DNA of 64,000 bases from Pantoea vagans (GTDB lineage Bacteria > Pseudomonadota > Gammaproteobacteria > Enterobacterales > Enterobacteriaceae). Location: contig NZ_CP038853.1 in the NCBI RefSeq assembly GCF_004792415.1, positions 3,472,001-3,536,000 on the forward strand, given 5' to 3'. Shown here piece after piece: positions 39,182 through 54,075 of this stretch (positions are counted from its first letter, which is position 1; every line of letters starts with the position of its first letter). The position numbers were made by a program, and so were the translations under genes. The notes under the pieces were generated by a model. The model ran no database searches. It worked only from the letters and a program-made list of their open reading frames with translations, and was not told the DNA's origin.

Positions 39182-40414
39182 GTGGCGGAAATATTGTCGG
39201 TTATTGAACATAGCTCGCTACCGATTATTGCAGAAAGAACCATAGATCAGTACGCGCTGGGCATTCATCATGCCCGCTTGCTGGAAAAGCTGGCGCCAAG
39301 TCTTCCTGCCGGCACCTTTAGCTGGGGCCATCAATCGATTCGTTTCGCACAATTTTGCGGCGTAATTCAGCTAGACGATTTAACACTTGAAATCCTGCCT
39401 AAGATACATGGTAAAGAGGAACAGCCTGAATCGTGCCGTGCAGCAATGGTGCAAATGCTGCATACCGCCCGACTCATGCGTACACATAAAGGGGCGCAGG
39501 CGAGTATCAATACTCAGCAACATAGCCTACTGGATATATTTATCCAGCACTTTTGCCATGATTTGCATACGCAGATCCTCCAGGGCAAGTTACGCAATTA
39601 TATAGAACAGGAAGAAAACCTGTCAGTAATGCGCGGCCGCCTGGTTATCCCACAACATGTCCGGCACAACTTAGTTCATAAAGAACGTCTTTATTGTCGC
39701 TTCGACGAGTTTAGCGAAGACATGCTGTTAAATCAGATACTCCGCTTTACCCTACGCCTGCTAATACCTTGGACACGCTCCGGCAAAACCAAAAAAAAGT
39801 TAATCGAACTGTTAATGCATTTTAATGGCATTAATGATGCACCCATCACTCTGCAATCATTCAAGTTACTTAAAAACGATCGCATTACCCAACGATTTCA
39901 GCCTGTACTTGAACAGTGTCGATTGTTTATTGCCGCGATCAAACCAGATGTACTAGCGGGCAGCACGCCGCTGTTTTCATTGCTGTTTGATATGAATCGT
40001 CTGTTTGAAGCATGGGTAGCAGAAAAGCTGAAGCCTTGGGCACACCATCAGGGCTGGCATCTTCGTACTCAAGGCCCCCGAAAATATCTGGCAATGCACG
40101 ACAATGATTCCCCAAAATTTCAATTAAGGCCGGATATTGCATTAGTTGATGACGATGGAAATCCGCAGTTAATAGCGGACACTAAGTGGAAATTGCTGAA
40201 CGCAGCAGATAGAAAACTCGGGGTTTCCAGTAGCGATATGTATCAGCTTTATGCCTATGCAGGATGCTATAAGGTCTCACGCTTGCAGTTAATTTACCCA
40301 AGGCAGTCAGGTTTGCTTTCAGACTATAATTTTATGCTCCAGGGGATGCATGCGCCAAGACTTACAGTAAAAACAATCGATATAGACGGCTTCACGGAAA
40401 TGGCATGGGATTAA
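39182..40414 (+). CDS. mcrC: McrC-family nuclease subunit
   Basis: 410 residues, starting 3 bp after mcrB with a GTG at 39182. The C-terminal PD-(D/E)xK nuclease core shows LRPDIALVDDDG then LIADTKWK, with Asp and the D-x-K pair in place, and SSSDMYQLYAYAG behind it. The N-terminal half resembles the McrC stalk that docks into the McrB ring. Together they form a modification-dependent or non-self-sensing restriction machine. Last gene of the island before the satellite prophage. Confidence 0.9.
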   Translation: MAEILSVIEHSSLPIIAERTIDQYALGIHHARLLEKLAPSLPAGTFSWGHQSIRFAQFCGVIQLDDLTLEILPKIHGKEEQPESCRAAMVQMLHTARLMRTHKGAQASINTQQHSLLDIFIQHFCHDLHTQILQGKLRNYIEQEENLSVMRGRLVIPQHVRHNLVHKERLYCRFDEFSEDMLLNQILRFTLRLLIPWTRSGKTKKKLIELLMHFNGINDAPITLQSFKLLKNDRITQRFQPVLEQCRLFIAAIKPDVLAGSTPLFSLLFDMNRLFEAWVAEKLKPWAHHQGWHLRTQGPRKYLAMHDNDSPKFQLRPDIALVDDDGNPQLIADTKWKLLNAADRKLGVSSSDMYQLYAYAGCYKVSRLQLIYPRQSGLLSDYNFMLQGMHAPRLTVKTIDIDGFTEMAWD

Positions 40415-40580
40415 CTTCCCGTTGAGATTTTAAATTATTCGAGCCCGTTAAAAATAGCAAAGTATGTCCTGGATTTAATGAACTTACAGATTGAGAGAGT
40501 TGTGAGAAAAGACAATTTCGGTAGACACCAAATCCCAGACACAAAAAAAGCCGCCCTTGAGCGACTTTAATTCGTATACC
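40415..40580. other. Spacer between mcrC and satellite attachment site
   Basis: No gene. An imperfect hairpin AAAGCCGC-CCTTGA-GCGACTTT at about 40548-40569 may terminate mcrC transcription (one mismatch). Confidence 0.4.
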
Positions 40581-40604
40581 TGGTGCCGAAGGCCGGACTC
40601 AAAC
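40581..40604. repeat. att site: duplicated 3' end of tRNA-Leu (distal satellite junction)
   Basis: TGGTGCCGAAGGCCGGA (17 bp) is identical to the 3' end of the tRNA-Leu gene at 52714-52730, and 5 of the next 7 bases also match. A tRNA-end copy at the far side of an integrase-bearing element is the classic mark of site-specific integration. It defines a 12.1-kb element, 40581-52730. Confidence 0.88.
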
Positions 40605-40656
40605 AACACTGCAACCATATGTTTTTTATGAAGATAAAATCACAAAAAACTAAGAA

Positions 40657-40675
40657 TGCCCCCTTTTGTGCCCCC
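40657..40675. repeat. Integrase arm-type repeat pair, distal end
   Basis: Two TGCCCCC repeats start at 40657 and 40669, exactly 12 bp apart. The same pair with the same 12-bp spacing is at 52581 and 52593 beside the integrase, so these are probable arm-type binding sites of the P4-like integrase flanking attP. Confidence 0.65.
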
Positions 40676-40822
40676 ACTTTATTTTAATCAATTTTTAAGG
40701 GCAGATGATCTCTAAGATTGAAGAGTAGCCAACCAGCAGATTCCCCGACCGATAAGTTAGGCTCCGAAAGACGGAACCTAACCGCACTGGCCCTTACTGG
40801 ACGAGATAGCAACTTGCATCGA

Positions 40823-41173
40823 TTAGCTGAAAAGCCACCGTCCGGCTTTCGCTGATTCGACGAGCATATGAATCGTCAAGGGTTTCGGTTCAACGTCAGG
40901 GAGCTTTTGGGATTTAGGCCTTAAGAAGTTAGGTAGAAATCCTTTTTCATAAGGCCAATATGCAAGAAAATCAAATTCGCTGCTATCGACGCTAAATCGC
41001 TCGAAATAGTCATTCATTATTTCGTCGCCAGTTTCTCTGGCCCAGGGATATTTACCTGTTGATAGACTGGTTTCAAGCGTTAGCTCAGGCTTATTTTTTG
41101 CAAAAAGAGGCTTAGAATTATAATTATTGTCATACCATTCCAACACAGCGCTTTCCATTGTGTCTTTTACCAT
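40823..41173 (-). CDS. DUF1493-family protein
   Basis: 116 residues, soluble, with the DUF1493 signature: an acidic N-terminal part, FLAYWPYEKGF and the C-terminal PLTIHMLVESAKAGRWLF. Family members occur in enterobacteria, usually with the membrane-associated protein encoded just upstream. Function unknown. Its start overlaps the upstream gene's end by 7 bp. Lies between the distal att site and the crr-like region of the satellite, outside the conserved P4 core. Confidence 0.7.
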   Translation of the reverse strand: MVKDTMESAVLEWYDNNYNSKPLFAKNKPELTLETSLSTGKYPWARETGDEIMNDYFERFSVDSSEFDFLAYWPYEKGFLPNFLRPKSQKLPDVEPKPLTIHMLVESAKAGRWLFS

Positions 41174-41610
41174 AACTTGTCACCTTCCTTTGCAATCAGG
41201 TTATAGCTGTGAGTCGTTTTCCATGCAATTTGAACCACGTCATTCATGATAAATCCTATACCCAATATGGGTATCCAGCGCCCAGCGAAAGCACCCAGGT
41301 TATTTACGTAACTGAATCTCAATCCTTTAATGCTTTCGGTAGTAAGTGTTGGCCAGCGGTGCACTCTGATCTTTAACCAAACACGAAGATTTGCACTCAA
41401 GATTGAGGTTCCCTTAGTTGTTCCGGCTGGTTTTGCGCGCGTGGTTTGGGTTGGTTGACCTAAAATTATTAGTGCTAAAGTGGCTACATCTTCCACACCA
41501 AGCTGTTTCTGAGCCTCATCCAGGAACACGAAGAAAAAAAGCTCTCCAGCGGAAAGATTGAACATTCCTTTGTAAAAATACGTCCCTTTCAGCTCTTCGA
41601 CAGTATCCAT
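41167..41610 (-). CDS. Conserved protein of unknown function, partner of DUF1493 gene
   Basis: 147 residues. A moderately hydrophobic C-terminal segment (GAFAGRWIPILGIGFIMNDVVQIAW) may be membrane-associated, and the Gly/Pro pattern recalls proteins that accompany DUF1493 genes. The N-terminal half is VEELKGTYFYKGMFNLSAGELF. I do not recognise an activity. GGAGATG lies just before ATG 41610. The pair is likely satellite cargo. Confidence 0.6.
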   Translation of the reverse strand: MDTVEELKGTYFYKGMFNLSAGELFFFVFLDEAQKQLGVEDVATLALIILGQPTQTTRAKPAGTTKGTSILSANLRVWLKIRVHRWPTLTTESIKGLRFSYVNNLGAFAGRWIPILGIGFIMNDVVQIAWKTTHSYNLIAKEGDKLW

Positions 41611-41754
41611 TACGCATCTCCTTTATGACTGTCTCAGTACCTTATCTACCGAATTGAGGTTCGTCCATAATCAAAATTTGAGATTTATTAATTGCAGTAG
41701 AGGATACTGAATTCAAATTTTCGATAAAAAAAGATTTTACAGAAAACCCTTCAC

Positions 41755-41850
41755 ATTGTTCACCTTTCATTTTTATTTATATATATCAGTTAATTACCTG
41801 ATGAATGATAGATGTAGGGTGAAGGATATCATTCATCACTGGTGAAATTC
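41755..41850. other. crr-like replication region (GGTGAA iterons and inverted repeat)
   Basis: Three GGTGAA hexamers (41759-41764 on -, 41818-41823 and 41841-41846 on +) and a perfect 11-bp inverted repeat GATGAATGATA / TATCATTCATC (41800-41810 and 41827-41837) around one of them. P4 alpha protein binds GGTGAACA-type iterons in ori1 and in crr, about 4.5 kb apart on either side of the alpha operon; here the second cluster is 4.1 kb away at 45883-45973. Confidence 0.65.
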
Positions 41851-41856
41851 AGGCAT

Positions 41857-41880
41857 AAAAAACCGGCTTTCGCCGGTTTA
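41857..41880 (-). terminator. Rho-independent terminator of the primase operon
   Basis: Eight-base-pair stem AAACCGGC-TTTC-GCCGGTTT; read on the minus strand it is followed by TTTTTT. It lies 6 bp after the primase stop codon. Confidence 0.9.
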
Positions 41881-41885
41881 GATAG

Positions 41886-44216
41886 TCATGCTGCTGGAGG
41901 GGCGTCGCACTTTGGCAGCCAGTCGGTGCTACTTTCTTCCGTCAGATCAAGGTTGGTCTGAACACCCAGCTTTGTCCGGCGCTTCATGTAGTGCTGTCCG
42001 TATTCCCGCATGATGCTCTCCAGCGACAGGCCGAACATCTTCATGCTGAGCGGATTCCTGTAGCCGTTGGCCTCCATGTAAGCAAGATAGGCGTGATAGA
42101 GGTAACGCCTGGGCTGAAGCGGCCTGATACTTGCGTTCCCCATATAGAGCGCATTTGGCTCCGGCGTGGTGAACAGGTAGCCGCAGAAGTCCACCATCGG
42201 ATCCGCATCACGCTTGATGCGCATCGCCTCGTCAGAGTTCTGCTGCGACTGAAGCAGCGACCGGGCCTGCTGTGGCTGGCTGAACTGCTGCATCAGCTGA
42301 CGCACAATGACGGCCAGCTCACCGCTGATTTTTTCCTTCAGCTGCGGGTCACGTTCGTCTGCCGGGATGATTTCCGGGAAGTGCAGTATCACCCGGCGGC
42401 GCGACACGCCCCCGCTGCGGTCGGTAAAGCGCATCGGGTTGTTGTTCACCGCCAGAATCACCGCCGGTATGTGGGTTGAATAGGCGTCGCGGTACTTCGG
42501 GTCAACGGACACCGCATCGCCACCGGTAATCGCCTTGATGCCCGCGCCGTCGCCGCTCCACTTTTCCTGGTCGGGCAGGATAATCAGCGAATACCCAATC
42601 ACCGCCGCGCGTTCGCGGGACGACTCCAGCGTTTCGATGGTCGCGGAGGTGGTGTTGTCCGTTCCGGCCAGCATGGTGGCGATTTCCGCCATGATGCTCT
42701 TACCGCTGCCCCCGGGGCCGGTGACCTCCAGAAACAGCTGCCAGTCGTAACGGTTCGCCAGCACCATAAACAGCGCAGCCAGAATGATGTCGCGTTTGGC
42801 CGGGTTACGTCCGGCGGCGCGGTCGAGCCACTGCCAGAAGTGCGGCGCATGGTCTGCCAATGTTTCACCCTGAACGGGCTTCGTATAGTCCACCTCGCTG
42901 ACCGTGCGCAGCCAGAAGTCTTTGCTGTGCGGGCTGAAGCCGCCGGTGCGGGTGTCCAGCACGCCGTTACGGAAGCCAATCAGGCGACGCGCCGGGTCGG
43001 CCTGCTGTGGCAGCATCAGCTTCAGCGTGTCCACTACGCCCGAAATTTTGCCCGCCGAAAACGGTGCGCGCAGGCGCTGGAACAGCTTCGCCACGTCGCG
43101 CTCAAACTGCTTCCCGGAAATCACCTTCCACGCGCCGGAGCGGTAACGGGACAGAATTTCCCCGCTGGCGTCCACGGCCAGCGCGCTGCGGTAGTGCTCC
43201 GCCACGCGCTCCGCCTTTTCGCTGGCGCTCATGGCCGAAAACTCCGCCTCGCTCATCACGTCGAACGGACTGGCGGCGGGTGGCGTGGCGGCTCCGGCCA
43301 GCGCCCGCCGGGTGCTTTCCTCACCGTGCTGCATGAAGGCGTCATTCCAGTCGCCGAACACCGGCGGCAGGGCCACGGCGGCGTGGCTGGCTTCAGCGGC
43401 CTGCTTTGCTTTCTTCTGCCCGTCGCCGTTCAGGTCGCGGTCGGCGGCAATCAGCAGAGGCAGCGTGGCGTGCTTTTCACGGGCAAGGCCAGCCAGAGAA
43501 AGGAGATTGACGGACGACAGGGCAATCCACACCTCATCCCCGGTCAGGTTGTGTACCGTCAGGCCGGTGGCGTAGCCCTCCGTCAGCCAGATGCGCGCTG
43601 CCGGTTTGCCGGTGCTGAGAACGTGGCACGCGCCTTTGACCTGGCCGCCCTTCAGCGTGCGCTTCTCGCCCGCGGCGTTAATCAGCTGCACGTTCACCAG
43701 CTGCCCGCCCGTATCGTGCAGGGGAACGAGCAGGTCACCGGCACGATACGCCGTGAGCGCGACTTTCTGCGGCTTCGCCAGCGTCAGGCAGGACTGCTCC
43801 GGCCAGCCCTTACGGGACAGGTAGGCGTTCCCGTTGGCCTGCTGCGCGGTGCTGACCAGCTGCTGTGCCTGCTTCACGGCGGCCGCACGGGCAGCTTCGT
43901 TATCTTCGCCCGCGCTGGCGACAGGCGTACTGTCCACCGGTGGCAGGCTGCCGGTCAGGCTGTTTACCCGCGCAGCGGCTTCGGTCAGGCTCAGTGAGAG
44001 GGCCTTTTTCACCAGGTCCATGCCGTCACCGGCACCGCACTGATTACAAATCCACGTGCCGCGTCCCTCCTGGTCGTCAAAGCGGAAGCGGTCGGTTCCG
44101 CCGCACACCGGGCAGGAGGTATGGCGGTTCTTCACCACCTTCACGCCCAGTGCGGGCAGAATGCGGGGCCACTGGCCCCGCGCGGCCTTTGCCGCGTCTG
44201 ATACGGTCATTTTCAT
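41886..44216 (-). CDS. P4 alpha-type primase-helicase
   Basis: 776 residues, almost the same length as P4 alpha (777). N-terminal zinc finger CPVCGGTDRFRF...CNQCGAGDG (about 36-63), a Toprim-type primase region near 170-290 (WLTEGYATGLTVH, LLIAADRDLNGDG), then an SF3-type helicase with Walker A GPGGSGKSIMAEIA near 505 and ILPDQEKW, and a C-terminal origin-binding part. It initiates satellite replication at the iterons. GGGAG precedes ATG 44216; a second ATG two codons later is possible. High GC, unlike the cargo. Confidence 0.95.
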   Translation of the reverse strand: MKMTVSDAAKAARGQWPRILPALGVKVVKNRHTSCPVCGGTDRFRFDDQEGRGTWICNQCGAGDGMDLVKKALSLSLTEAAARVNSLTGSLPPVDSTPVASAGEDNEAARAAAVKQAQQLVSTAQQANGNAYLSRKGWPEQSCLTLAKPQKVALTAYRAGDLLVPLHDTGGQLVNVQLINAAGEKRTLKGGQVKGACHVLSTGKPAARIWLTEGYATGLTVHNLTGDEVWIALSSVNLLSLAGLAREKHATLPLLIAADRDLNGDGQKKAKQAAEASHAAVALPPVFGDWNDAFMQHGEESTRRALAGAATPPAASPFDVMSEAEFSAMSASEKAERVAEHYRSALAVDASGEILSRYRSGAWKVISGKQFERDVAKLFQRLRAPFSAGKISGVVDTLKLMLPQQADPARRLIGFRNGVLDTRTGGFSPHSKDFWLRTVSEVDYTKPVQGETLADHAPHFWQWLDRAAGRNPAKRDIILAALFMVLANRYDWQLFLEVTGPGGSGKSIMAEIATMLAGTDNTTSATIETLESSRERAAVIGYSLIILPDQEKWSGDGAGIKAITGGDAVSVDPKYRDAYSTHIPAVILAVNNNPMRFTDRSGGVSRRRVILHFPEIIPADERDPQLKEKISGELAVIVRQLMQQFSQPQQARSLLQSQQNSDEAMRIKRDADPMVDFCGYLFTTPEPNALYMGNASIRPLQPRRYLYHAYLAYMEANGYRNPLSMKMFGLSLESIMREYGQHYMKRRTKLGVQTNLDLTEESSTDWLPKCDAPPAA

Positions 44217-44230
44217 TATTCTGTTCTCCC

Positions 44231-44554
44231 TCAGTGCAGCACCGGCGCGTCTTTGAGGCGCCCGCAGAGTTCATCCATCACCACCTGTCCCAGAAAGCTC
44301 AGGCACGGAACCGACTTGAGCGGCCCGGCGGCCAGCAGGTCGTCGAGCAGCGCGCAGGCAATTTCCTGACCGCGCTGGCGTCCGTGCTGGCGCAGATAGA
44401 AGCCTTCCAGCTCGGTTTCAATGGCGTGCTCAAGGCGCGCCAGCGTCAGGCCGGGATAGCGCTTCTGTTCGCGGCAGACGGTCAGCCAGGCGCAGGCCAC
44501 CGCGCGGCGGGACAGCGCGGCCCGCAGCTCAGTTGAAAGGGTACGCGCGCTCAT
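44231..44554 (-). CDS. P4 orf106-like (DUF5375) early protein
   Basis: 107 residues, matching in size and place the P4 protein of 106 residues encoded before alpha. Helical, rich in Ala, Leu and Arg, with [21 protein letters not shown]. Function unknown. Its ATG overlaps the upstream stop by 4 bp, so it is translated as part of the leftward early operon. Confidence 0.75.
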
Positions 44555-44775
44555 GGCTCAACCTCTTCGTTCATCCAGCCGTCCTGACAGCGGTTTACCA
44601 CCCCGTCCAGCTGTTCGGTGATAAGAAACACAAGAGAAGCCAGCTGCGCCTGCTGTGTGGCCGGTGGCTGTTCGTGGCACTCCTGAAGCAGGGTCATGTC
44701 GCTGATAAAGCGCCCGGCGTTGCGAAGGTGCTCAAGGCATAACAGGTCGGCGTGGGAAATGGTGGCGTGAGTCAT
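44551..44775 (-). CDS. Small early-operon protein of the satellite
   Basis: 74 residues, helical and acidic ([20 protein letters not shown]). Four-base ATGA overlaps at both ends couple it to its neighbours. Such short proteins are typical between the Kil-like and orf106-like genes of P4 relatives. No known domain. Confidence 0.65.
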
Positions 44776-45203
44776 GCGCGCACCTCCCGGACCGGCAGGC
44801 GGGCGGCAAGGGACAGCACGTAATCGCGGGCCAGCTTCTGGCGGGCGGCACGTTCGTCAGCGGCAACGGTGCGGAGCATGTGGATACGCTGCTGGCGCTC
44901 AGTACGGCGCACGGCGGCAAAGACGAAAACAAACTGAGGGTATGGGGAATTCAGGACCGTAGCCATGATGGCAGTCTCCATTGAGTAGCGGTTATCGCCA
45001 CCACCGGAAACGCCAATTTCACTGGTGGTAGCCCGGACGGGGTTGGCGTAACCGGCCTCAATGGATACCGGCGCTTCGTGAGAAGCCCCCGCCCGGGCCA
45101 CCATTACACAGACGGCACTACGGCAATAAAACCGCAGCCCGAAAAATGGTTGCACTAAGGCATGGACACAAAAAAAGACGCATTGGGCGTCTGGTGTCGC
45201 CAT
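44772..45203 (-). CDS. Ash/Icd-like (P4 orf199/Kil region) protein
   Basis: 143 residues from the ATG at 45203; the frame stays open to 45380 (202 residues, close to P4 orf199) and an internal ATG at 44966 would give a 64-residue product. The middle carries [12 protein letters not shown] and [19 protein letters not shown], typical of Ash proteins, and the last 64 residues ([20 protein letters not shown]) match Icd-like/Kil host-cell-division inhibitors. Which starts are used is unknown; both nested products are likely. In P4 the immunity RNA CI is made from the leader of this operon. Confidence 0.65.
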
Positions 45204-45339
45204 TGAGATATTCAGGACGCCAATCCCGGCTGCCGATTTTGCGACAGCAGAAAGACTGTACCAGGGAATGGCCCCGGCGCGCAAGCCGGGGAACACAGGA
45301 AAATGCAGCATGGCGGAAAATCTCAAGAGTTGGTGAAGA

Positions 45340-45606
45340 TCATGCTGCACGTTCCCGACCACGTGCGGCGATGCGTGCATTCATCCAGGCACTGATTTCA
45401 CTGGCAAGCCACGCGACGTTCTTGCCGCCAAGCGACACCTGCGCCGGAAAAGCACTGCGGCTGATGAGGTCGTAAATGGTCGAGCGGGACAGGCCGCAGA
45501 CGTGGATCACTTCCGGCAGACGCATAAAGCGTTCCTGGACCGGGAATGATACCGGCATGGCAGGGGCCGCCGGGGCGGATGAATGAGCGCTTAAAGTCGT
45601 GTGCAT
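45340..45606 (-). CDS. vis: AlpA/Vis-family excisionase-repressor
   Basis: 88 residues, exactly the length of P4 Vis. A MerR-like winged helix of AlpA type occupies 27-75 ([20 protein letters not shown], then [19 protein letters not shown]). P4 Vis represses the late leftward promoter and is needed for excision. GAGG is 6 bp before the ATG. A Delta-box lies 102 bp upstream. It overlaps the long version of the next frame, not the version chosen here. Confidence 0.88.
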
Positions 45607-45707
45607 GAGCTACCTCTAAGGTGTCCGTGAAGCGCCGCACAGGTGTGTACGGCATCGGGTAGCTCTTTATTTTGCGAATATTTTTGCCAGTGACAACAAC
45701 AGAAATC

Positions 45708-45725
45708 TGTCTGACCGGTCGCACA
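45708..45725 (-). promoter_or_regulatory. Ogr/Delta activator site for leftward late promoter (PLL-like)
   Basis: TGT-N12-ACA (TGTCTGACCGGTCGCACA), the Ogr/Delta binding pattern that sits at -55 in P2/P4 late promoters. It lies 102 bp upstream of vis on the minus strand, so transcription would begin near 45661. Shares TGTCTG and the right-hand CA with the rightward copy. Confidence 0.65.
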
Positions 45726-45882
45726 AAAACCACATAAAGTATGGGTGTACCAGAACAGTACTAAATAGTACTAAAGAGGGATAGTAAGGTTTTATCCAAT
45801 AACTTTAAGTTCGTTTGAATCGGATTTTAAAAACCAATCATTCTAAAGGATAAGCTAGGCCAATATCCTTCTGATGAAGAAT

Positions 45883-45973
45883 GGTGAACAGAGGGTGAAG
45901 GATTATTTTTTCACTCTTCACCTCTTAATTAACTGTATTTACTAATTTTTTCTCTCTGGTGAAGAATGGTGAA
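45883..45973. other. Replication origin candidate (ori1-like GGTGAA iterons)
   Basis: Five GGTGAA hexamers in about 90 AT-rich bases: 45883, 45894, 45958 and 45968 on + and 45917-45922 on -. The first reads GGTGAACAGA, the P4 alpha-binding iteron. Located between the divergent vis and sid transcription units, as ori is in P4. Confidence 0.72.
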
Positions 45974-46047
45974 TAATTTATTTAAAACTGAAAGCTGATA
46001 ACAGGCTTCATTGAGGCCTTTCCCTGGCTCGCCAGAAGTAATGCTTT

Positions 46048-46065
46048 TGTCTGGTCCGTCATACA
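46048..46065 (+). promoter_or_regulatory. Ogr/Delta activator site for rightward late promoter (Psid-like)
   Basis: TGT-N12-ACA (TGTCTGGTCCGTCATACA) centred at 46056.5. A -10-like CACAAT is at 46101-46106, which places the transcription start near 46112 and the site at about -55, as required for Ogr/Delta activation. The leader to the Sid-like start at 46139 is then about 27 nt. Confidence 0.75.
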
Positions 46066-46138
46066 ACGCCCTCCGGTAGCAGCCGCTGTGCCAGACCCGG
46101 CACAATTGACTTACTGAAACCAGCCGACAGGAATGCCC

Positions 46139-46882
46139 ATGACCGATAACGCCACCGTAACAGCAGCTGACGCGCTCCCTGCTTCCGTGCAGAGTGCGCT
46201 GGAAAAGGTTAACGCTGCCCGAAATGCCTGGATTGAGACGCGCCATAAACAGGAGTCAGCGGCTTCGCAGGCTGACACCATCCGCCAGCGCCGTGCTGAG
46301 ACTGAGGCGAACGCGACCGCACAGAATGACGAATGGCGCAGGCTGTTCCGTGAGAACGGCGGCGTGATGACGCCGGAGATGAAGAAGCTGCGCGCGGAGA
46401 TTGCGCTCTACCGCGAGTCGCTGGAAGAGTTTGACGCCCTGCTGGCCCTGCACGCACAGGAAAGTGAGTTCCTGCCGTGGGAGACTGCCGACCGCGCGAA
46501 AGATTACATCAGCGCCCATAACGAACTCATCCGGCTGCGTGCCATGCAGCTGTGGCAGGACTTCATGCAGACGCACGGCGGGCCGCTGATTCAGACGCTG
46601 AGCCTGCTGAAAATCACGCTGGGCCGCGAGGCATCCATCACCACCGGCGTCGTCCGGGGCGTCAACGACCCGGAAAGCGTACTCAGGGAATTTATCGCAA
46701 AACATATCACACGCCCTGCGCTTGAGCGCGACGCCCTGCCGGAGCAGGACGCAGCCTTCAGGCTGGCAGGTGTATTCCCGGATCATGCAGCCCGCACTGA
46801 CCTCAGCAAAGGCCCGTCACCGGCAGCACGGAACAGAATGCTGATCCGCCGCGAAATGGCGCAGAAGGAGCAGCAACAATGA
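46139..46882 (+). CDS. Sid-like capsid-size determination protein (first copy)
   Basis: 247 residues from ATG 46139 (AGGA 6 bp upstream; the ATG at 46133 has no room for a site). Mostly helical. The pattern ETEANATAQNDEWRRLFREN followed by GGVMTPEMKKLRAEI matches in place and kind the P4 Sid region NDADDWRTAFRAAGGVLSDE. Sid forms an external scaffold that makes the helper phage build small capsids. First late gene, downstream of a Delta box; its end overlaps psu by 4 bp. A second related gene follows at 47721. Confidence 0.72.
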   Translation: MTDNATVTAADALPASVQSALEKVNAARNAWIETRHKQESAASQADTIRQRRAETEANATAQNDEWRRLFRENGGVMTPEMKKLRAEIALYRESLEEFDALLALHAQESEFLPWETADRAKDYISAHNELIRLRAMQLWQDFMQTHGGPLIQTLSLLKITLGREASITTGVVRGVNDPESVLREFIAKHITRPALERDALPEQDAAFRLAGVFPDHAARTDLSKGPSPAARNRMLIRREMAQKEQQQ

Positions 46883-47439
46883 CCGCTGCAATCACACCCG
46901 CACAGGCGGTGGAACAGTTCCGCACCGCCCGCAGCCAGTGGCAGACGCACCTGAGTGAGCGTCAGGAGGCCGAAACGGCGCTGAATACCCTGCTCACGGC
47001 GGGCGAAAATACGGCTGATTACAGTGAGCAGGTGCCACAGCTGCGCGAACGCATCGCGGTGCTGAACTGGCAGATTAACTGCGCCGCGCGCGAGAGCGTG
47101 TATTCACAGCGGATGGTGCTGGAGGCCTGCACGGAGGATGCGCTCAGCGGTTTTATGAGCGAACACGGCCCGGCGCTCACCTCCGCGCTGGCCCCGTTCC
47201 TGAACGGCCCCGGCGGGCTTGACGTGGCCGCCCGGCTGCTGCGCAGCGCCGTGGCGCGTGAGGTGCAGCGGACGCGCCCGGCGGTGGCCGCAGCCTATCA
47301 GGACGCGCTGGCCGAAACGGGCCTTGCCCCGGAGGCCGGTATGCTGCGCGACTGTCAGGGCAGCCACACCCCCGCGCAGCACCTGCGCTTTGCGCAGCGC
47401 CGGGACCGGATTTCGCAGGAGGGCGCGCAATGGCCCTGA
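46879..47439 (+). CDS. psu: Psu-like polarity suppression / capsid decoration protein
   Basis: 186 residues (P4 Psu has 190). Conserved features are FMSEHGPALTSALAPFLNG, matching the QHGTALAAALAPEL of P4 Psu, and the C-terminal HTPAQHLRFAQRRDRIS, matching FTPAQNMIFSRKSAQL. Psu inhibits Rho-dependent termination and decorates the small capsid. AAGGAG precedes ATG 46879, which overlaps the upstream stop. Confidence 0.85.
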   Translation: MTAAITPAQAVEQFRTARSQWQTHLSERQEAETALNTLLTAGENTADYSEQVPQLRERIAVLNWQINCAARESVYSQRMVLEACTEDALSGFMSEHGPALTSALAPFLNGPGGLDVAARLLRSAVAREVQRTRPAVAAAYQDALAETGLAPEAGMLRDCQGSHTPAQHLRFAQRRDRISQEGAQWP

Positions 47440-47705
47440 AATGCCCGGAGTGCGGCACCACCGCGCACACACGCACCAGCGCCTACGAGTCAGCGACCGT
47501 CAAGCGCACCTGGTATCAGTGCACCAACCTTGACTGCTCCTGCACGTTCACCGCGCTGGAGAGCGTCGAGAAAATCATCATGAAGCCGCAGAAGCCTGCG
47601 GAGTCAGAACCCGCAACTGAACCACTGAGCGCGGCGCGTCAGCCGCAGACGCTGGGCCGCTACGGCGACGCCTGCACCCGCCGCGACCGCCACGCACAGC
47701 CCTGA
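47430..47705 (+). CDS. Ogr/Delta zinc-finger transcriptional activator
   Basis: 91 residues. One zinc finger with cysteine pairs CPECG (4 and 7) and CTNLDCSC, and the YQCTNLDCSCTFTALESVE signature of P2 Ogr. P4 Delta is about twice as long, with two such domains, so this is a single-domain, Ogr-like form. It should activate the two TGT-N12-ACA promoters of the satellite and perhaps helper late promoters. Start overlaps the psu end by 10 bp. Confidence 0.88.
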   Translation: MALKCPECGTTAHTRTSAYESATVKRTWYQCTNLDCSCTFTALESVEKIIMKPQKPAESEPATEPLSAARQPQTLGRYGDACTRRDRHAQP

Positions 47706-47720
47706 CAGAGAGAAAAAAGC

Positions 47721-48533
47721 ATGACACAGCAGAACATGACAGAAGAAGAGATGAAGACAACCGCTGAACTCGTTGGCTCGCTCGTGGCAAGAAGCCGGAA
47801 GCCGCTGCAGGATGCGGGATGGCTCCTGAAGCTGCCCGAGGCCGACGTTATCAGCCACACGACCGCGCTGGTGAAGGACCTTCCCGCTGGCTGGCAGGCC
47901 CGCGTACAGGACCTCCAGTGCAAAATGCTGGCCTGGCTGGAGGCAAAGCAGGCAGAAGCCGCCGCTGAGGACAGCATCAGCGCACTGCGCCAGCGTAAGG
48001 CCGAAACGGAGCAGACCAGCCAGGACAACCGGGCGCGCTTTCGTGAACTGCTTGAGCAGAACGGCGGCACCGTCACGCCGGAAATGAAAGCGCTGCGCGC
48101 GGAGTATCTGGAACAGCAGGAAACGGCATCAGACCTTGCCGGACTGATTGCCGAAAGGGAAAAGCAGCTGCCCGCGCTGGCCGATGCGACCGGACGCAAG
48201 GCAAATGCCTATGTGTTCTGCCATGACGGCATTACGGACGAGCGTATTGACACGCTCATTGATGAATTTTTTATGGTGAACGGCGTTGAACTCGGCAGCC
48301 TGCTCAGAATGAAATACAGCCAGTTTGAGCGAAACGGATCAATTCATGCGCCCGGCGTGATTGAAGGAGCGAACGATGCGGATACGCTGTACCGTAAATT
48401 TGCCGTGAACCTCATTGAGAAATGGACGCATAAAAACCTGCCGCTGATGTTCCGGGATGACGTTATCAGCCTGGCTGGCGCTTATCCTGTCAGGGGAGCC
48501 AGAACCGACCGGCGCAAGCGCAAAATTTTCTGA
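47721..48533 (+). CDS. Second Sid-like protein (paralogue of the gene at 46139)
   Basis: 270 residues, helical. Its section LRQRKAETEQTSQDNRARFR followed by ELLEQNGGTVTPEMKALRAEY aligns well with RQRRAETEANATAQNDEWRR...ENGGVMTPEMKKLRAEI of the first copy, and both go on with a GVxxGxNDxxxxxxxFxxx segment (GVIEGANDADTLYRKFAVNL against GVVRGVNDPESVLREFIAKH). It therefore belongs to the same family. It ends the late operon, before a strong terminator. Two Sid-type genes in one satellite are not part of the P4 plan I know. It could be a scaffold variant or have another capsid role. Confidence 0.7.
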   Translation: MTQQNMTEEEMKTTAELVGSLVARSRKPLQDAGWLLKLPEADVISHTTALVKDLPAGWQARVQDLQCKMLAWLEAKQAEAAAEDSISALRQRKAETEQTSQDNRARFRELLEQNGGTVTPEMKALRAEYLEQQETASDLAGLIAEREKQLPALADATGRKANAYVFCHDGITDERIDTLIDEFFMVNGVELGSLLRMKYSQFERNGSIHAPGVIEGANDADTLYRKFAVNLIEKWTHKNLPLMFRDDVISLAGAYPVRGARTDRRKRKIF

Positions 48534-48558
48534 GTCTCTGATTTAAAATCCCACAGAT

Positions 48559-48583
48559 GCCCGGCCATGTGCCGGGCTTTTTT
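48559..48583 (+). terminator. Rho-independent terminator of the late operon
   Basis: Stem GCCCGGC-CATGT-GCCGGGC followed by TTTTTT (48578-48583), 26 bp after the last late gene. Confidence 0.93.
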
Positions 48584-48732
48584 GTGCCTGCACACACCAG
48601 CATGAGCGTGCATGTCTATGCTGCATGAAAACGCATGATTCTCAGACACCCAAAAGCGGCAGCAAAGGCCAGCAGCGGCGGGGTCCGGAGCCACTCATGC
48701 AGTTGCATGAAAACCGCTGCATGAAGTGCGCA

Positions 48733-48751
48733 GGCGTGGCGGGGCTACGAG
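48733..48751. other. cos-like site (cohesive-end candidate)
   Basis: GGCGTGGCGGGG is identical to the first 12 bases of the 19-base cohesive ends of 186-type phages as I remember them (P2/P4 differ at one base, GGCGAGGCGGGG). It is followed by a CG-rich stretch and preceded by repeated GCATGAA words. The place, after the late genes and before cargo and int, is where P4 has cos. Confidence 0.6.
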
Positions 48752-48928
48752 CGCGCGCTGGGCGTTGTACATCAGAACTGCATCTGTAAACGGCATGAGC
48801 ATGCACGCATCGTGCAATATCGAAATAGACATAGCATTAATCCTAAAAATGTGTAAAAAATAGTGAAGAATTTTTAAACCACTTGTCCGCTCTTTCAAGA
48901 AAAAATCTTCACTCAAGAGAGTCATAAG

Positions 48929-49309
48929 ATGCTAAATCATATTTATGGAATAGTTGGTATAGTCGGCACATTGGTTACGATTGTGACGAGCTACATAAGG
49001 AATCAAGAAATATCACAATGGTTACTTGTATGTTCTGGTTGGCTGGCGGCGCTACTGATCGGTTGGTTTACACATAGAACTATTGAACTTCTAAGCAATA
49101 ACCACAAAGAGACAATCATCAGTAATGATGGTATCAAACAAACTTTGATTGAACGTAATGAAACTTTGACCTCCCAGCTTACACACGCATTAGAACAGAA
49201 AGAAAAAATGGAAGGAATCGCAGCTTATTTAGCCACTCAGAACCCACAAATTAATGCTATGCCCAGAGCCATCGCGCGGCAAGAAAGCACTGAGTTAGGA
49301 GGTAATTAA
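48929..49309 (+). CDS. Small membrane protein of the satellite cargo locus
   Basis: 126 residues with two N-terminal hydrophobic helices (IYGIVGIVGTLVTIVTSYI and WLLVCSGWLAALLIGWF) and a cytosolic or periplasmic helical tail with a coiled stretch (TLTSQLTHALEQKEKMEGIA). No family recognised. It is strongly AT-rich compared with the satellite core and lies 1 bp before the Beta-family gene, so the two should be co-expressed. A membrane partner beside a soluble protein is common in abortive phage-defence systems. Confidence 0.65.
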   Translation: MLNHIYGIVGIVGTLVTIVTSYIRNQEISQWLLVCSGWLAALLIGWFTHRTIELLSNNHKETIISNDGIKQTLIERNETLTSQLTHALEQKEKMEGIAAYLATQNPQINAMPRAIARQESTELGGN

Positions 49310-49310
49310 G

Positions 49311-50375
49311 ATGAAAGTAAATTTTGATAGTTATTCGTATTATCCTGCGTTAAGAACTCGCGCAGCTGAAATCCTTGGTTTAAGCAATCTGGCTCATGAT
49401 AAAAAAGAGAAAATAATCCCACTAATTACTTTAGGCAAATGGCCTCGTTCAGATGAAATTCAAGTCTCTCTCGACAAAAGCCTAGATGCAATGGGTGGTT
49501 TACCTTTTATCTTAGACGTTACGCAAGAGAATAAGCATCATTGTGCATCAAGCTTTGATCTTCTGTCCTCTGAAAATAACTTCTCGAATTGGATATCTTT
49601 TTGCTCAAATAATGAAAACATTATTCCCGTAGTTCAAATGCCTGAATCTGCTAGATTAAGAGACATAGTGCAGCAAGCAAGGATACTTGAAGATAACAAA
49701 GGATCTATTGCATTTCGCATAAAGAACCTTAACAATGATATAAATAAAACAATAGCATCTTTAGTTTCTATCGACTCACCTGAGAACGCCATTATATTCA
49801 TAGACTTGGGCTACATACGCGGGCATGTTTCCGCAATGACGTCTGCTGCCATTAGTGCAATAAATCAAATAAGGACAGAAATACCCGAAGCTATAATAAG
49901 TGTGCTATCAACTAGTTTCCCAAGCTCTGTAGCAAACTTTGCAGGGGAGAATGGTCAGGCTGGATTTATTGATATTATGGAAAGAGAATTTCACCAGACC
50001 ATTGGAGGACGAGGTGTTTCTATATACGGAGACCATGGTTCAATTCACTCTGTTGTATATGATGATGTTGGGGGGCGTTATGTTCCAAGAATTGATGTTG
50101 CATTAGACGATGCCTGGTTCTTTGAGAGAAGACCAGGACTCGACAGCAAAGGTTATATTGAAGCGGCAAGATCGATCCTCAAAAGATATCCTAATTATTT
50201 AGAAGAAGAATCTTGGGGGGCGTTGATGATTAAAAATGCTGCCTCAGGGGATGTTGCGGGTATGGGTAGTCCAGCTAAATGGATTTCTGTGCGTGTAAAC
50301 CTTCATATAACAAAGCAAATCGAGTTATCAGAGGCACTTAAAACAGCCTACGATCCTGAAGAAGATTTCTTCTAA
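49311..50375 (+). CDS. Beta-family protein (P4 Beta / sce7725-like)
   Basis: 354 residues, soluble, with the start YYPALRTRAAEILGL and KIIPLITLGKWP, then a repeated strand-rich core (GLPFILDV; NIIPVVQMPES; AIIFIDLGYIRGH), and a C-terminal WGALMIKNAASGDVAGMGSPAKW region. This is the Beta protein family, named after P4 beta, part of the gop-beta-cII defence module. AGGAGGT 8 bp upstream gives a strong ribosome site. No catalytic motif is obvious. Same operon as the membrane protein, convergent with the nuclease-like gene. Confidence 0.75.
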   Translation: MKVNFDSYSYYPALRTRAAEILGLSNLAHDKKEKIIPLITLGKWPRSDEIQVSLDKSLDAMGGLPFILDVTQENKHHCASSFDLLSSENNFSNWISFCSNNENIIPVVQMPESARLRDIVQQARILEDNKGSIAFRIKNLNNDINKTIASLVSIDSPENAIIFIDLGYIRGHVSAMTSAAISAINQIRTEIPEAIISVLSTSFPSSVANFAGENGQAGFIDIMEREFHQTIGGRGVSIYGDHGSIHSVVYDDVGGRYVPRIDVALDDAWFFERRPGLDSKGYIEAARSILKRYPNYLEEESWGALMIKNAASGDVAGMGSPAKWISVRVNLHITKQIELSEALKTAYDPEEDFF

Positions 50376-50378
50376 TGC

Positions 50379-50402
50379 ATAAGGGAGGAACACCTCCCTT
50401 AT
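50379..50402. terminator. Bidirectional terminator between cargo genes
   Basis: Ten-base-pair perfect stem ATAAGGGAGG-AACA-CCTCCCTTAT lying in the 23-bp gap between the convergent Beta-family and sce7726-family genes; the stop codon of the latter is in the right arm. Confidence 0.8.
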
Positions 50403-51190
50403 CTCACTACCCTTTTTAATACCTTGATAGGAGTAACACTTCCAAACTCCCCGTATTTTCTCATTAATTCTTCCATATTGACTGTATAAAAATCTTTCGA
50501 TTTTTCGTCGTTACTGCCTTCAAAATCTTTAAAGTTAATTTGTTCTCGTCTTTTTTTTGACTTACTCAACAAACTCAAATCAACAGATGACAATCCACTT
50601 ACCGTCAATTGTTTCAAATAATCATCAGAAGTTTCTTTATAGCGCAACTTAATTGCTTCCAGCACAAACCCCCTAATTTTAGATAGAGGGATTTTTTCAG
50701 CGATACGTTCTAAAGCTTCACGTCCAGATTCAAATAGAAAACTTTTACCATTTTCAATAAGTAGTGATTGCAATTCTTTCTTTAGTAAAAAATTAATGTA
50801 GACTTTTTTATTACCGAGTACAGTTGTCCGACCACGCTGAACTATTTTGAAATGAATACCTTTACTAGTATTTAGGTATTCAATAATACCAACATTTGAT
50901 GATACTTTCGTCGCAATTTCATAGGTAAACTTTGGCGCGCAAACAACAGTGACCTTTTCAAAACGAGAAGTGAATGTTTCCAGTTGACCATCTAATCTCT
51001 TAAGGGAGTCGAAATCACTTTTTATTTCAATGGCTTGCAGATGACCATTAGCCACGGCTAAATCAGCGCGCCGACTCCAATTAGCCACAACCATTTCATT
51101 AATAATGGTTGCGTTTTCTAATAGACCCTTTCTATAAAGCCAGTCAATAAATGCGACTTTTATATCTTGCTCTCTTAATAAACCTGACAT
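50399..51190 (-). CDS. sce7726-family, PD-(D/E)xK nuclease-like protein
   Basis: 263 residues from ATG 51190 (MSGLLREQDIKVAFIDWL), which matches family starts; a frame 11 codons longer exists. The core WSRRADLAVANGHLQAIEIK SDFDSLKRLDGQL has the D...E-x-K pattern of PD-(D/E)xK nucleases, followed by the family's VTVVCAPKF strand. The C-terminal half is basic. Sce7726 proteins often accompany Beta/sce7725-type genes. Probably a DNA- or RNA-cleaving effector controlled by the Beta-family partner, but no member is well characterised to my knowledge. Confidence 0.72.
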   Translation of the reverse strand: MSGLLREQDIKVAFIDWLYRKGLLENATIINEMVVANWSRRADLAVANGHLQAIEIKSDFDSLKRLDGQLETFTSRFEKVTVVCAPKFTYEIATKVSSNVGIIEYLNTSKGIHFKIVQRGRTTVLGNKKVYINFLLKKELQSLLIENGKSFLFESGREALERIAEKIPLSKIRGFVLEAIKLRYKETSDDYLKQLTVSGLSSVDLSLLSKSKKRREQINFKDFEGSNDEKSKDFYTVNMEELMRKYGEFGSVTPIKVLKRVVR

Positions 51191-51284
51191 GATTTCGTCA
51201 CACCTTAAAATGTTATTAATCATTATAGCAAAAAAAGGAGATATTATCTATTCGTCCGCGTTAATAGTTTTGTATTTTAATTCA

Positions 51285-52550
51285 TTAGACCTTATTTATT
51301 ATCCTTCCGTAATCATAGGGTGAAATGTATTGATCTTTGTTTAATTGTAGATAGTCAGCCCACCATTGAATCATTTTGCGCCTTTCATCTAAATGTTCTG
51401 ACGTATGAATATAAGCGGCCCTAACATTATTACGTTCTGTGTGGCTCAACTGGCGCTCTATCGCGTCATCGCTCCATAACCCTGACTCACCTAATGCGCC
51501 ACGCGCCATAGTTCTAAATCCATGCCCGCAGACCTCTTTTTTTGTGTCATATCCCATCGTACGTAATGCACTATTTATCGTATTTTCACTCATGACCTTA
51601 GTTGCATCGTGATCCCCCGGAAAAAGCATCTCTTTATCACCACTAATCTGTTTAAGCTGCTCTAACAAAATCATCGCCTGTCGACTGAGAGGAACAATAT
51701 GCTCCTCTTTCATCTTCATACCCCGGTATGAGTAACGCACGCCTTTAATTTCTTCTCGTTTTGCAGGTATACGCCAAAGAGATTTATCAAAGTCGAATTC
51801 ATCCCAACGCGCGAAACGTAACTCACTGGAACGTACAAAAGTTAGCAAGGAAAGCTCGACCGCGATCCGTGTCATTACACGGCCACGATATGCAGCTAGA
51901 CGTGTAAGAAACTCATGGAACCGGCTGGAAGGTAAAGCCGGGTAATGTCGCGCTTTGGTTGTCGATAGCGCACCGGCCATATCGCTGGCTGGATTTGAGT
52001 CGATGTAATCGTTCTGTACGGCATAACGCATAATGGCCGTGACGCGCTGTTGCAGGCGCTGAGCAACATCGTGTTTGCCACTGGCATCAACTTTTTTAAT
52101 CGGGGCTAACAGGTGGCTGGTTTTAAGCTGCCGAATGTCGGACGAACCGATGTGGGGGAAGATATAAAGCTCAAGATAGCGTAGAACGCGTGATCGATGG
52201 TCTTCACTCCAGCGCTTGTTACTGGCATGCCATTCGCGAGCAATTGTTTCGAAAGTGTATGCCCCCGAATTCTCAGCATGAGCTTCTTTCTGTTCGGCTT
52301 TTGGGTCAATGCCCTGTACTAAGAGCTTTTTAGCCTCATCACGCTTTGCTCTTGCCTGAGCAAGCGTCACAGTAGGCCAAACACCAAAGGCAAGGCGATC
52401 CTCTTTTTTGTCAGAGGGGCGTCTGTATTTCATGCGCCAGTATTTAGAACCCTTGGCCGAAACCTCGAGATACAAACCACCGCCATCGGCCATTTTGTAG
52501 TTTTTGTCTTTTGGCTTTGCGGTCTCGACCTGTCTGGCGTTGAGCTTCAT
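51285..52550 (-). CDS. int: P4-type tyrosine-recombinase integrase
   Basis: 421 residues from the ATG at 52550 (MKLNARQVETAKPKDKNYKM, the P4 integrase start); a frame four codons longer starts at 52562. An N-terminal arm-binding domain precedes the catalytic domain with Arg in SSELRFARW (about 243), HGFRTMARG (about 337) and the tyrosine in VRAAYIHT (about 380). It recombines attP with the 3' end of leuX, which is 164 bp from its start. Sequence agrees closely with P4-type integrases along the first 100 residues, as far as memory allows. Confidence 0.95.
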   Translation of the reverse strand: MKLNARQVETAKPKDKNYKMADGGGLYLEVSAKGSKYWRMKYRRPSDKKEDRLAFGVWPTVTLAQARAKRDEAKKLLVQGIDPKAEQKEAHAENSGAYTFETIAREWHASNKRWSEDHRSRVLRYLELYIFPHIGSSDIRQLKTSHLLAPIKKVDASGKHDVAQRLQQRVTAIMRYAVQNDYIDSNPASDMAGALSTTKARHYPALPSSRFHEFLTRLAAYRGRVMTRIAVELSLLTFVRSSELRFARWDEFDFDKSLWRIPAKREEIKGVRYSYRGMKMKEEHIVPLSRQAMILLEQLKQISGDKEMLFPGDHDATKVMSENTINSALRTMGYDTKKEVCGHGFRTMARGALGESGLWSDDAIERQLSHTERNNVRAAYIHTSEHLDERRKMIQWWADYLQLNKDQYISPYDYGRIINKV

Positions 52551-52552
52551 TT

Positions 52553-52599
52553 GGGGGCACATTTCTAATCGAAGTTAAGATGCCCCCAATTATGCCCCC
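52553..52599. repeat. Integrase arm-type repeats, int-proximal end
   Basis: TGCCCCC at 52581 and 52593, spaced 12 bp, plus one in reverse (GGGGGCA at 52553-52559) at the start of int. They mirror the pair at 40657-40675 near the other att site. Confidence 0.65.
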
Positions 52600-52619
52600 A
52601 ATGACATCCGGATTTCAAC

Positions 52620-52700
52620 GGACTATCTCGGACGACTCAGGACGTGAAAATCGCTGCAAGCATTGATTTTAAAGGGATAACTGGACTTTCTCGGATGGTC
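52620..52700. repeat. Imperfect direct repeats beside attachment site
   Basis: GGACTATCTCGGACGACTC (52620-52638) and GGACTTTCTCGGATGGTC (52683-52700) match at about 15 positions and lie 63 bp apart between int and the tRNA. They may bind Vis or the integrase. Confidence 0.45.
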
Positions 52701-52713
52701 TTAGAAGTACTAA

Positions 52714-52798
52714 TGGTGCCGAAGGCCGGAATCGAACCGGCACGCCTCGCGGCGGTTGATTTTGAATCAACTGCGTCTACCGATTTCGCCACTTCGGC
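52714..52798 (-). tRNA. leuX: tRNA-Leu (anticodon CAA), with encoded CCA
   Basis: 85 nt. The acceptor stem GCCGAAG pairs with CTTCGGC before ACCA; the anticodon arm is GTTGA-TTCAAAA-TCAAC with CAA in the loop; there is a long variable arm, as in class II tRNAs, and the T-arm is CCGGTTCGATTCCGG. Sequence is close to enteric leuX, the classic P4 integration site. Its last 17 bases are duplicated at 40581, so the tRNA was kept intact on insertion. Confidence 0.96.
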
Positions 52799-52920
52799 AC
52801 TGAAGGGTATGCGGAAAACGTTGAGGATTATACCGTTACCCCCTGTTTCCGCAACCCTTATCCGCAGACGAAGGTGTAACTGCTGAAAAAACCGTCTTTT
52901 GGGTTCTCCGGTTTACCTGC

Positions 52921-53967
52921 CTAACCCGAAACAGCCTTAACATCCGTCACCAGCGTCGGCAGATCCCAGGTGCCGCCCGCATGGATATACCGACACATGC
53001 CGGTCCCGCCGTCATAGCTTTTGCGGAAGGTCTTGCCGTCCCATACCCAGCTTTCCTGGCTCATGCAGTCGCCAATACCGCGGCCTTTCTGCACGCTGGT
53101 GATCTCGCCTTTGTCGTAATCCGACCCGGAAATGGTCACCAGCTCAGGCTTGCCTTTTAACTGGTTATCAATGACCCAGTAGCCATAGCCTTCGTTATAA
53201 GCGGCACGCCAGCAGAGTGCCGAAAGCAAGGCGTGTGTGTCATCCAGTGGCGTAAGCGTGAGTCCGTCGGTTTCCGGATCGCTGTTTTCTGCCGGTGAAT
53301 AGAGGCTGTCGCACGTGTCATCATCATTATGATTGACCGTTGCAAGCAGCCGGGTTTTCAGCGCGTCACTCTCTAAGGCGGTCAGCAAACGCGGTTCGCC
53401 GCCGAGGGTTTTAGCCGCCTGTATAACCGGTGCGGGCACAGCCTTAACCACGCTGTTTTCCGGCTTATTGCCCTTTTTGGTGAGCGCACCTGGCGTGCCG
53501 ATACGGCCCTGTACGTCGTCCGCTTTCAGCAGCACGGCATAGGCGCCTTCGCCGGAAAGCTGGAATGGCTTTGTGCCTCCTTTAAATTCGACTTTACCGC
53601 TGCCTTTCACGGCGCTGATCACCGCAGCGGTCTGACTGGCCGACATTCGCCAGTTGTCATCAGCCGCCACCAGATCGCCAGCTGATTTACCATTGATCCA
53701 CAGCGTCAGATTTTCCGCTGGTTCACTGTCATCTTCGGTGTCGCCGAGCGTCACTTCGCCCACTGTCTCCGTTCCCGGTCCAGCGGCACGGGTGAGCAGG
53801 ATGGAGCCGGAGGGATCCTCTTCTCTGGCATAACCCGCAATGCGGCAGGTCCGAGTGTTATCACAGACCACTTCCCAGTCTTTGTGCTCAAGCGTTTTTC
53901 CGCTCTGAGCGGCCTGAGCCGACAGGGAAAGCATCGCCAGCACGAAAAGCATCGGTTTACAGTTCAC
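52921..53967 (-). CDS. DUF1176-family secreted protein
   Basis: 348 residues with a signal peptide (MNCKPMLFVLAMLSLSAQA). The mature part starts KTLEHKDWEVVCDNTRTCRI and has six or more cysteines spread through the chain (CDNTRTC, TCDS, LCWR, DCMSQ, MCRY), probably in disulfides. The pattern KDWEVVCDN and GGTWDLPTLVTDV fits DUF1176, whose function is unknown. It is monocistronic and reads towards the tRNA gene. Confidence 0.8.
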   Translation of the reverse strand: MNCKPMLFVLAMLSLSAQAAQSGKTLEHKDWEVVCDNTRTCRIAGYAREEDPSGSILLTRAAGPGTETVGEVTLGDTEDDSEPAENLTLWINGKSAGDLVAADDNWRMSASQTAAVISAVKGSGKVEFKGGTKPFQLSGEGAYAVLLKADDVQGRIGTPGALTKKGNKPENSVVKAVPAPVIQAAKTLGGEPRLLTALESDALKTRLLATVNHNDDDTCDSLYSPAENSDPETDGLTLTPLDDTHALLSALCWRAAYNEGYGYWVIDNQLKGKPELVTISGSDYDKGEITSVQKGRGIGDCMSQESWVWDGKTFRKSYDGGTGMCRYIHAGGTWDLPTLVTDVKAVSG

Positions 53968-54075
53968 GTTAATCCCTCAGGTTTTATTTCTGCCCGGCCT
54001 GCACAGATAGCGCCTGATTATATCGAAGAGAATTTGACGTCGTTATCCGTTTTTATTGCCCTCCTCCACAACGCA

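Follow-up and report, generated by a model that had tools for sequence, protein, structure and literature searches.

The gop-beta-cII module of a P4-type satellite in Pantoea vagans and the pairing of Beta with CII beside differing partner genes

We studied a block of three genes in a 64,000-nucleotide stretch of Pantoea vagans DNA (contig NZ_CP038853.1, positions 3,472,001 to 3,536,000; the window). An earlier, sequence-only reading had placed three open reading frames (ORFs) here and proposed them as a new anti-phage system; all three ORFs are present as described. The first, gop (48929-49309, forward strand), codes for a small membrane protein of 126 amino acids (aa), the toxin of the module. 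One base separates its stop codon from the ATG of the second gene, beta (49311-50375, forward strand, 354 aa), in agreement with the close translational arrangement claimed earlier; Beta is an antitoxin or control protein with a predicted triosephosphate isomerase (TIM) barrel. The third gene, cII (50399-51223, reverse strand, 274 aa), is convergent with beta and codes for a PD-(D/E)xK nuclease-like protein of the sce7726 family. The start codon corresponding to that of P4 CII lies at 51190.

Gop matched the PADLOC gop model PDLC03001 at 1e-72 (residues 1-126 of 126), Beta matched the beta model PDLC02985 at 4e-186 (1-352 of 355), and CII matched the cII model PDLC02989, spelled 'cll', at 3e-113 (1-263 of 265). 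In pairwise alignments with the P4 proteins, 82/126 residues of Gop (65%), 258/352 residues of Beta (73%), and 142/262 residues of CII (54%) were identical. When a phage collection of 50,697 records was searched with tblastn, P4 gave the best match for Gop, Beta, and CII, at 61.7%, 73.3%, and 52.9% identity, respectively. The family assignments made from the sequence were borne out for Beta (Pfam PF14350, 6e-55) and for the sce7726 protein (NCBIfam NF033832, 6e-41), while for Gop no family passed the cut-off in Pfam or NCBIfam, and PHROGs gave none. The block is almost certainly the P4 gop-beta-cII defence module, in a diverged copy; this module is already known and is a catalogued defence system, not a new one. 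The statement that Gop and CII are absent was in error, as PADLOC and the comparison with P4 identify the 126-aa protein as Gop and the sce7726 protein as CII. The supposed absence is probably explained by the fact that the P4 record NC_001609 names CII 'sce7726 family protein' and that Gop has no Pfam family. New-looking cargo is in this case a catalogued defence module masked by database naming. The proposal of a single anti-phage system made up of the three genes fits, with protection published for the P4 copy, but the system in question is gop-beta-cII. A search of the whole source genome for Beta gave one match, and a search of phage and E. coli collections, from which records of the window's own genome were possibly excluded, gave no match to near-identical DNA.

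The convergent beta and cII genes are separated by a strong hairpin (50379-50402, no strand; -15.4 kcal/mol, z -4.4). The hairpin of the shared terminator proposed earlier is thus present. Its role as a terminator is putative, being suggested by analogy with P4, in whose record a putative terminator is so termed at the same place; a simple terminator scan did not include the hairpin among its calls. The two-helix character of the membrane protein was likewise upheld in part: two helices are seen by eye, but for the window copy a rough count from hydropathy yields a single one. The Gop alignment (A3) used 22 of 27 proteins.

The module resides in a P4-type satellite. All 20 base pairs (bp) of the P4 attP core are matched exactly at the far end of the element (40581-40600), while at the other end, in the 3' end of tRNA-Leu(CAA) (52714-52730), the core is matched over just 17 bp. 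A cos-like stretch (48676-48758, forward strand), which forms the left border of the cargo slot, aligned with the joined P4 ends with a score of 66, compared to a maximum of 31 in 200 single-base shuffles; no exact 12-base words from the P4 ends were found within 40000-54000. The right border is the integrase gene int (51285-52562, reverse strand), whose product contains Pfam integrase domains and has 393 of 414 residues identical with P4 Int. The alpha protein shares 534/776 residues with P4 alpha (both pairwise), and the cI-, ORF106-, and ORF88-like proteins also match their P4 counterparts. The element thereby shows the P4-type features: a P4-like int, the alpha primase, a regulator of the AlpA type, proteins of the Sid, Psu, and Delta kinds, the attachment core, and cos. 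Thus, the attachment cores, the likeness of Int and alpha, and the cos-like stretch identify the element as a P4-type satellite of 12.15 kb (40581-52730, no strand), which is bounded by two attachment sites and has the module at the customary cargo position. As claimed from the sequence, the block between the cos-like site and int is AT-rich (37.5% guanine and cytosine (GC), versus 61.2% across 41886-48533). This is ordinary for a gop-beta-cII module, since P4's own has 35.9% GC. The late genes (46133-48533) code for a Sid-like protein, Psu, a 91-aa Ogr/Delta-like protein (P4 Delta has 166 aa), and then an extra 270-aa protein, which gave a Sid/Psu-type match (phrog_6165, 4e-20) and adjoins the cos-like stretch. 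This order differs from the sid-delta-psu order of P4 and is rearranged in the satellite.

The folds of CII and Beta were studied using predicted models. The PD-(D/E)xK superfamily is defined by a core of alpha-beta-beta-beta-alpha-beta order, and this order was found in the predicted model of CII and its PDB matches. The D...E-x-K residues of the motif were kept in 33/33 aligned CII sequences (alignment A2 used 31 of the best 120 of 310 proteins). A sequence search of solved structures with CII gave nothing usable (best E 0.42). CII is therefore predicted to be PD-(D/E)xK nuclease-like by its motif residues and modelled fold, in line with the sequence-only reading, and would presumably have nuclease activity. 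For Beta, a model with a mean predicted local distance difference test (pLDDT) score of 90.3 was obtained, whose predicted fold is a TIM barrel with conserved polar residues at the strand ends (conservation was counted over the 55 of 60 Beta matches whose ORFs exceed 300 aa; alignment A1 used 29 of the best 120 of 222 proteins). A sequence search of solved structures with Beta gave nothing usable (best E 0.017). Naming an enzyme from the predicted fold was considered and rejected, because the rows listed in the fold comparison tie within about 1.5 Z units.

Outside the window, the surroundings of beta were analysed in 58 loci (L007-L030, 24 loci; L041-L050, 10 loci; L059 and L079-L101, 24 loci), all retrieved through Beta and none through CII. 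One of them (L101) had no Beta ORF and proved to contain sce7725, which left 57 loci for the counts; these are partly non-independent, with four Beta pairs at least 90% identical. A cII gene lay tail-to-tail behind beta in 48/57 loci, and was not found behind beta in L044, L045, L047, L079, L080, L091, L092 (where the contig ends), L094, and L095. Based on size and motif, several classes of upstream partner could be told apart. A small membrane protein preceded beta in 16 loci, all 16 with cII; 12 of these proteins were recognised by an iterated Gop profile, three by hydropathy count, and one (L023) by eye. In 13 loci, the partner was an HExxH protein of 160-220 aa (11 with cII), and 11 of the 13 also had a gene for a membrane protein further upstream. 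PD-lambda-2-type loci, with an HExxH protein of 400-472 aa, numbered eight (three with cII), and three loci had an HExxH protein of 282-297 aa (all with cII). No recognised partner preceded beta in 17 loci (15 with cII). Both HExxH proteins that were checked (L046, L050) were confirmed as Pfam Peptidase_M78. The sequence-only reading had suggested checking whether the three families co-occur and whether the D/E-x-K residues are conserved. Neither check refuted the reading: Beta and sce7726/CII are adjacent in these 48 loci, though with a Gop-like protein before beta in just 16, and 49/50 CII ORFs retain the D...E-x-K residues, the sole exception being half of a broken gene.

Several loci depart from the common arrangements. 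L047 has two tandem Beta genes, each behind its own HExxH peptidase-like gene, with one two-helix protein heading the array and no cII in the stretch. In L028 (Photorhabdus asymbiotica) beta is broken and cII is in two pieces, while the loci of congeners (L024, L025) are whole; beta is also broken in L029 (Curvibacter sp. HBC28), whose congeners (L017, L018) have whole loci. Another Beta-cII arrangement, with the 282-297-aa HExxH protein and a 216-244-aa protein in front, was found in L084, L087, and L096.

As a control, 394 genomes of the order, including the window's own, were searched for Beta and CII, apparently as the same set in both cases. Beta was found in 18 genomes, CII in 22, and both in 15 (Fisher p 2.6e-19). 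In one of the 18 (G710), the Beta match was sub-threshold and corresponded to sce7725; in another genome (G813), the Beta and CII genes lay on different contigs. By the Beta and CII searches, the two genes were adjacent in 13 genomes, and in G649 cII was detected solely by an iterated profile. The frequent pairing of Beta with CII beside differing partner genes looks like the fresh element here: our literature search, which included the main text of PMC13092281 and left most subscription papers and all supplements outside, returned no paper joining Beta and CII across systems. The pairing leads to a testable idea, in which the P4 'antitoxin' Beta would be an enzyme or sensor with a TIM barrel and would work with a nuclease.

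According to Rousset et al. 2022 (PMC9122126), P4 gop-beta-cII cloned in E. coli K-12 gives protection from lambda and P1; earlier work cited there (Ghisotti et al. 1990) is reported to have found P4 Gop toxic when Beta is absent. In the mechanism that we propose, Beta, with its predicted TIM barrel, would keep the membrane toxin Gop silent, which we consider likely. With somewhat less assurance, infection would alter what Beta or CII senses, so that Gop would be freed, the membrane harmed, and the infection aborted; we infer both the ligand of Beta and the order of these events. Only tentatively do we suggest that CII might couple infection to Beta or produce a signal for Beta to read, and so be more than just another effector; alternatively, it might cut phage nucleic acid. 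Several points weigh against this reading. We infer the link between Beta and the release of Gop, and in the accessible parts of the literature covered, no experiment separates the defence role of CII from that of Gop. Foldseek gave just one match of CII below 0.001. The rows of the Beta fold comparison are tied and FabG reductase is among Foldseek's six Beta matches below 0.001; no ligand or activity of Beta can therefore be named. Finally, Gop and CII of the window are just 65% and 54% identical to those of P4, from which the activity of this copy is presumed by analogy.

The strongest rival, to which we give somewhat less than an even chance, holds that Beta and CII form the defence core, as sensor and nuclease, that Gop is just one among a number of interchangeable killers, and that the direct anti-phage work may fall to CII and not to Gop. 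The tail-to-tail placement of cII in 48 of the 57 loci behind several kinds of upstream gene, its presence in 15/17 loci without a recognised upstream partner, and the nearly complete retention of the motif residues argue for such a core. Against it stand the five of eight PD-lambda-2-type loci without cII, the three components of the published PD-lambda-2 system, and the same want of experiments that tell CII apart from Gop. It is rather unlikely that the module mainly maintains the satellite through addiction or superinfection exclusion and that phage defence is a by-product: the relief of Gop toxicity by Beta is addiction-type behaviour (PMC9122126) and the module resides on a mobile element, but the P4 copy measurably protects against lambda and P1 (same source), and Gop and Beta alone would leave CII no role. 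A new three-gene system without Gop and CII, to which the family-less membrane protein and the NCBI name of CII had lent some colour, has next to no probability and was rejected, given the full-length matches of all three proteins to P4 Gop, Beta, and CII.

The identification as gop-beta-cII places the window module closest to P4 (NC_001609; Rousset et al. 2022), with which it shares all three genes, their order and strand pattern, the hairpin between beta and cII, the placement between cos and int, and AT-richness; the window Gop is seven residues shorter than that of P4. A second relative is PD-lambda-2 (Vassallo et al. 2022), whose third component is Beta-related. The window Beta matches the PADLOC model PD-Lambda-2_C at 6e-10, and the accessible part of PMC9519451 calls this component related to the P4 antitoxin and describes three components without CII. 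In PD-lambda-2, a HigB-like A and a HigA-peptidase B precede the Beta-like C, whereas the window has gop there, and no HigB/HigA-peptidase pair was found before beta in the ORF list of 42-56 kb. Three of the PD-lambda-2-type loci (L042, L043, L093) have cII tail-to-tail behind the Beta-like component, while the five others do not; PADLOC, run on L042 as the only locus of the type so checked, identified A (1e-42), B (4e-155), C (1e-78), and cII (2e-24). A further testable idea is that CII is also a component of some PD-lambda-2-type systems.

The third system is the sce7725/sce7726 pair (NF033831/NF033832), CII being a member of the sce7726 family. Nine CII-like places in the genome set were not beside a Beta gene, and in eight of them (all except L123) the CII-like gene was paired with a gene for a 301-317-aa protein. 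In these eight pairs, both genes lie on the same strand with the cII-like gene first, whereas the window cII is convergent with beta. All five of the partner proteins scanned were NF033831 sce7725, and two of the seven scanned against PF14350 gave matches below cut-off (2e-4, 4e-4). When a broad Beta alignment of 85 sequences was compared with eight sce7725 proteins using hhalign, the local probability was 94% (E 1.4e-7 over 292 columns) and the global one 97%. The window Beta itself did not match NF033831, and the narrow P4-type Beta alignment gave no significant likeness to sce7725 (4.7%); the latter leaves the kinship of sce7725 with Beta, judged from these profiles, probable and not settled. 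The sce7725/sce7726 pair may thus be a distant form of the Beta-CII pair. Taking the known systems together, we lean slightly towards the view that Beta and CII are a portable two-protein immune core, consisting of a TIM-barrel receptor or enzyme and a PD-(D/E)xK nuclease encoded usually tail-to-tail, that is plugged into Gop-type two-helix membrane proteins, a membrane protein with an ImmA/IrrE (M78) peptidase, or the HigB/HigA-peptidase pair of PD-lambda-2, with sce7725/sce7726 as its distant same-strand form. If so, gop-beta-cII, PD-lambda-2, and sce7725/sce7726 would be one defence superfamily.
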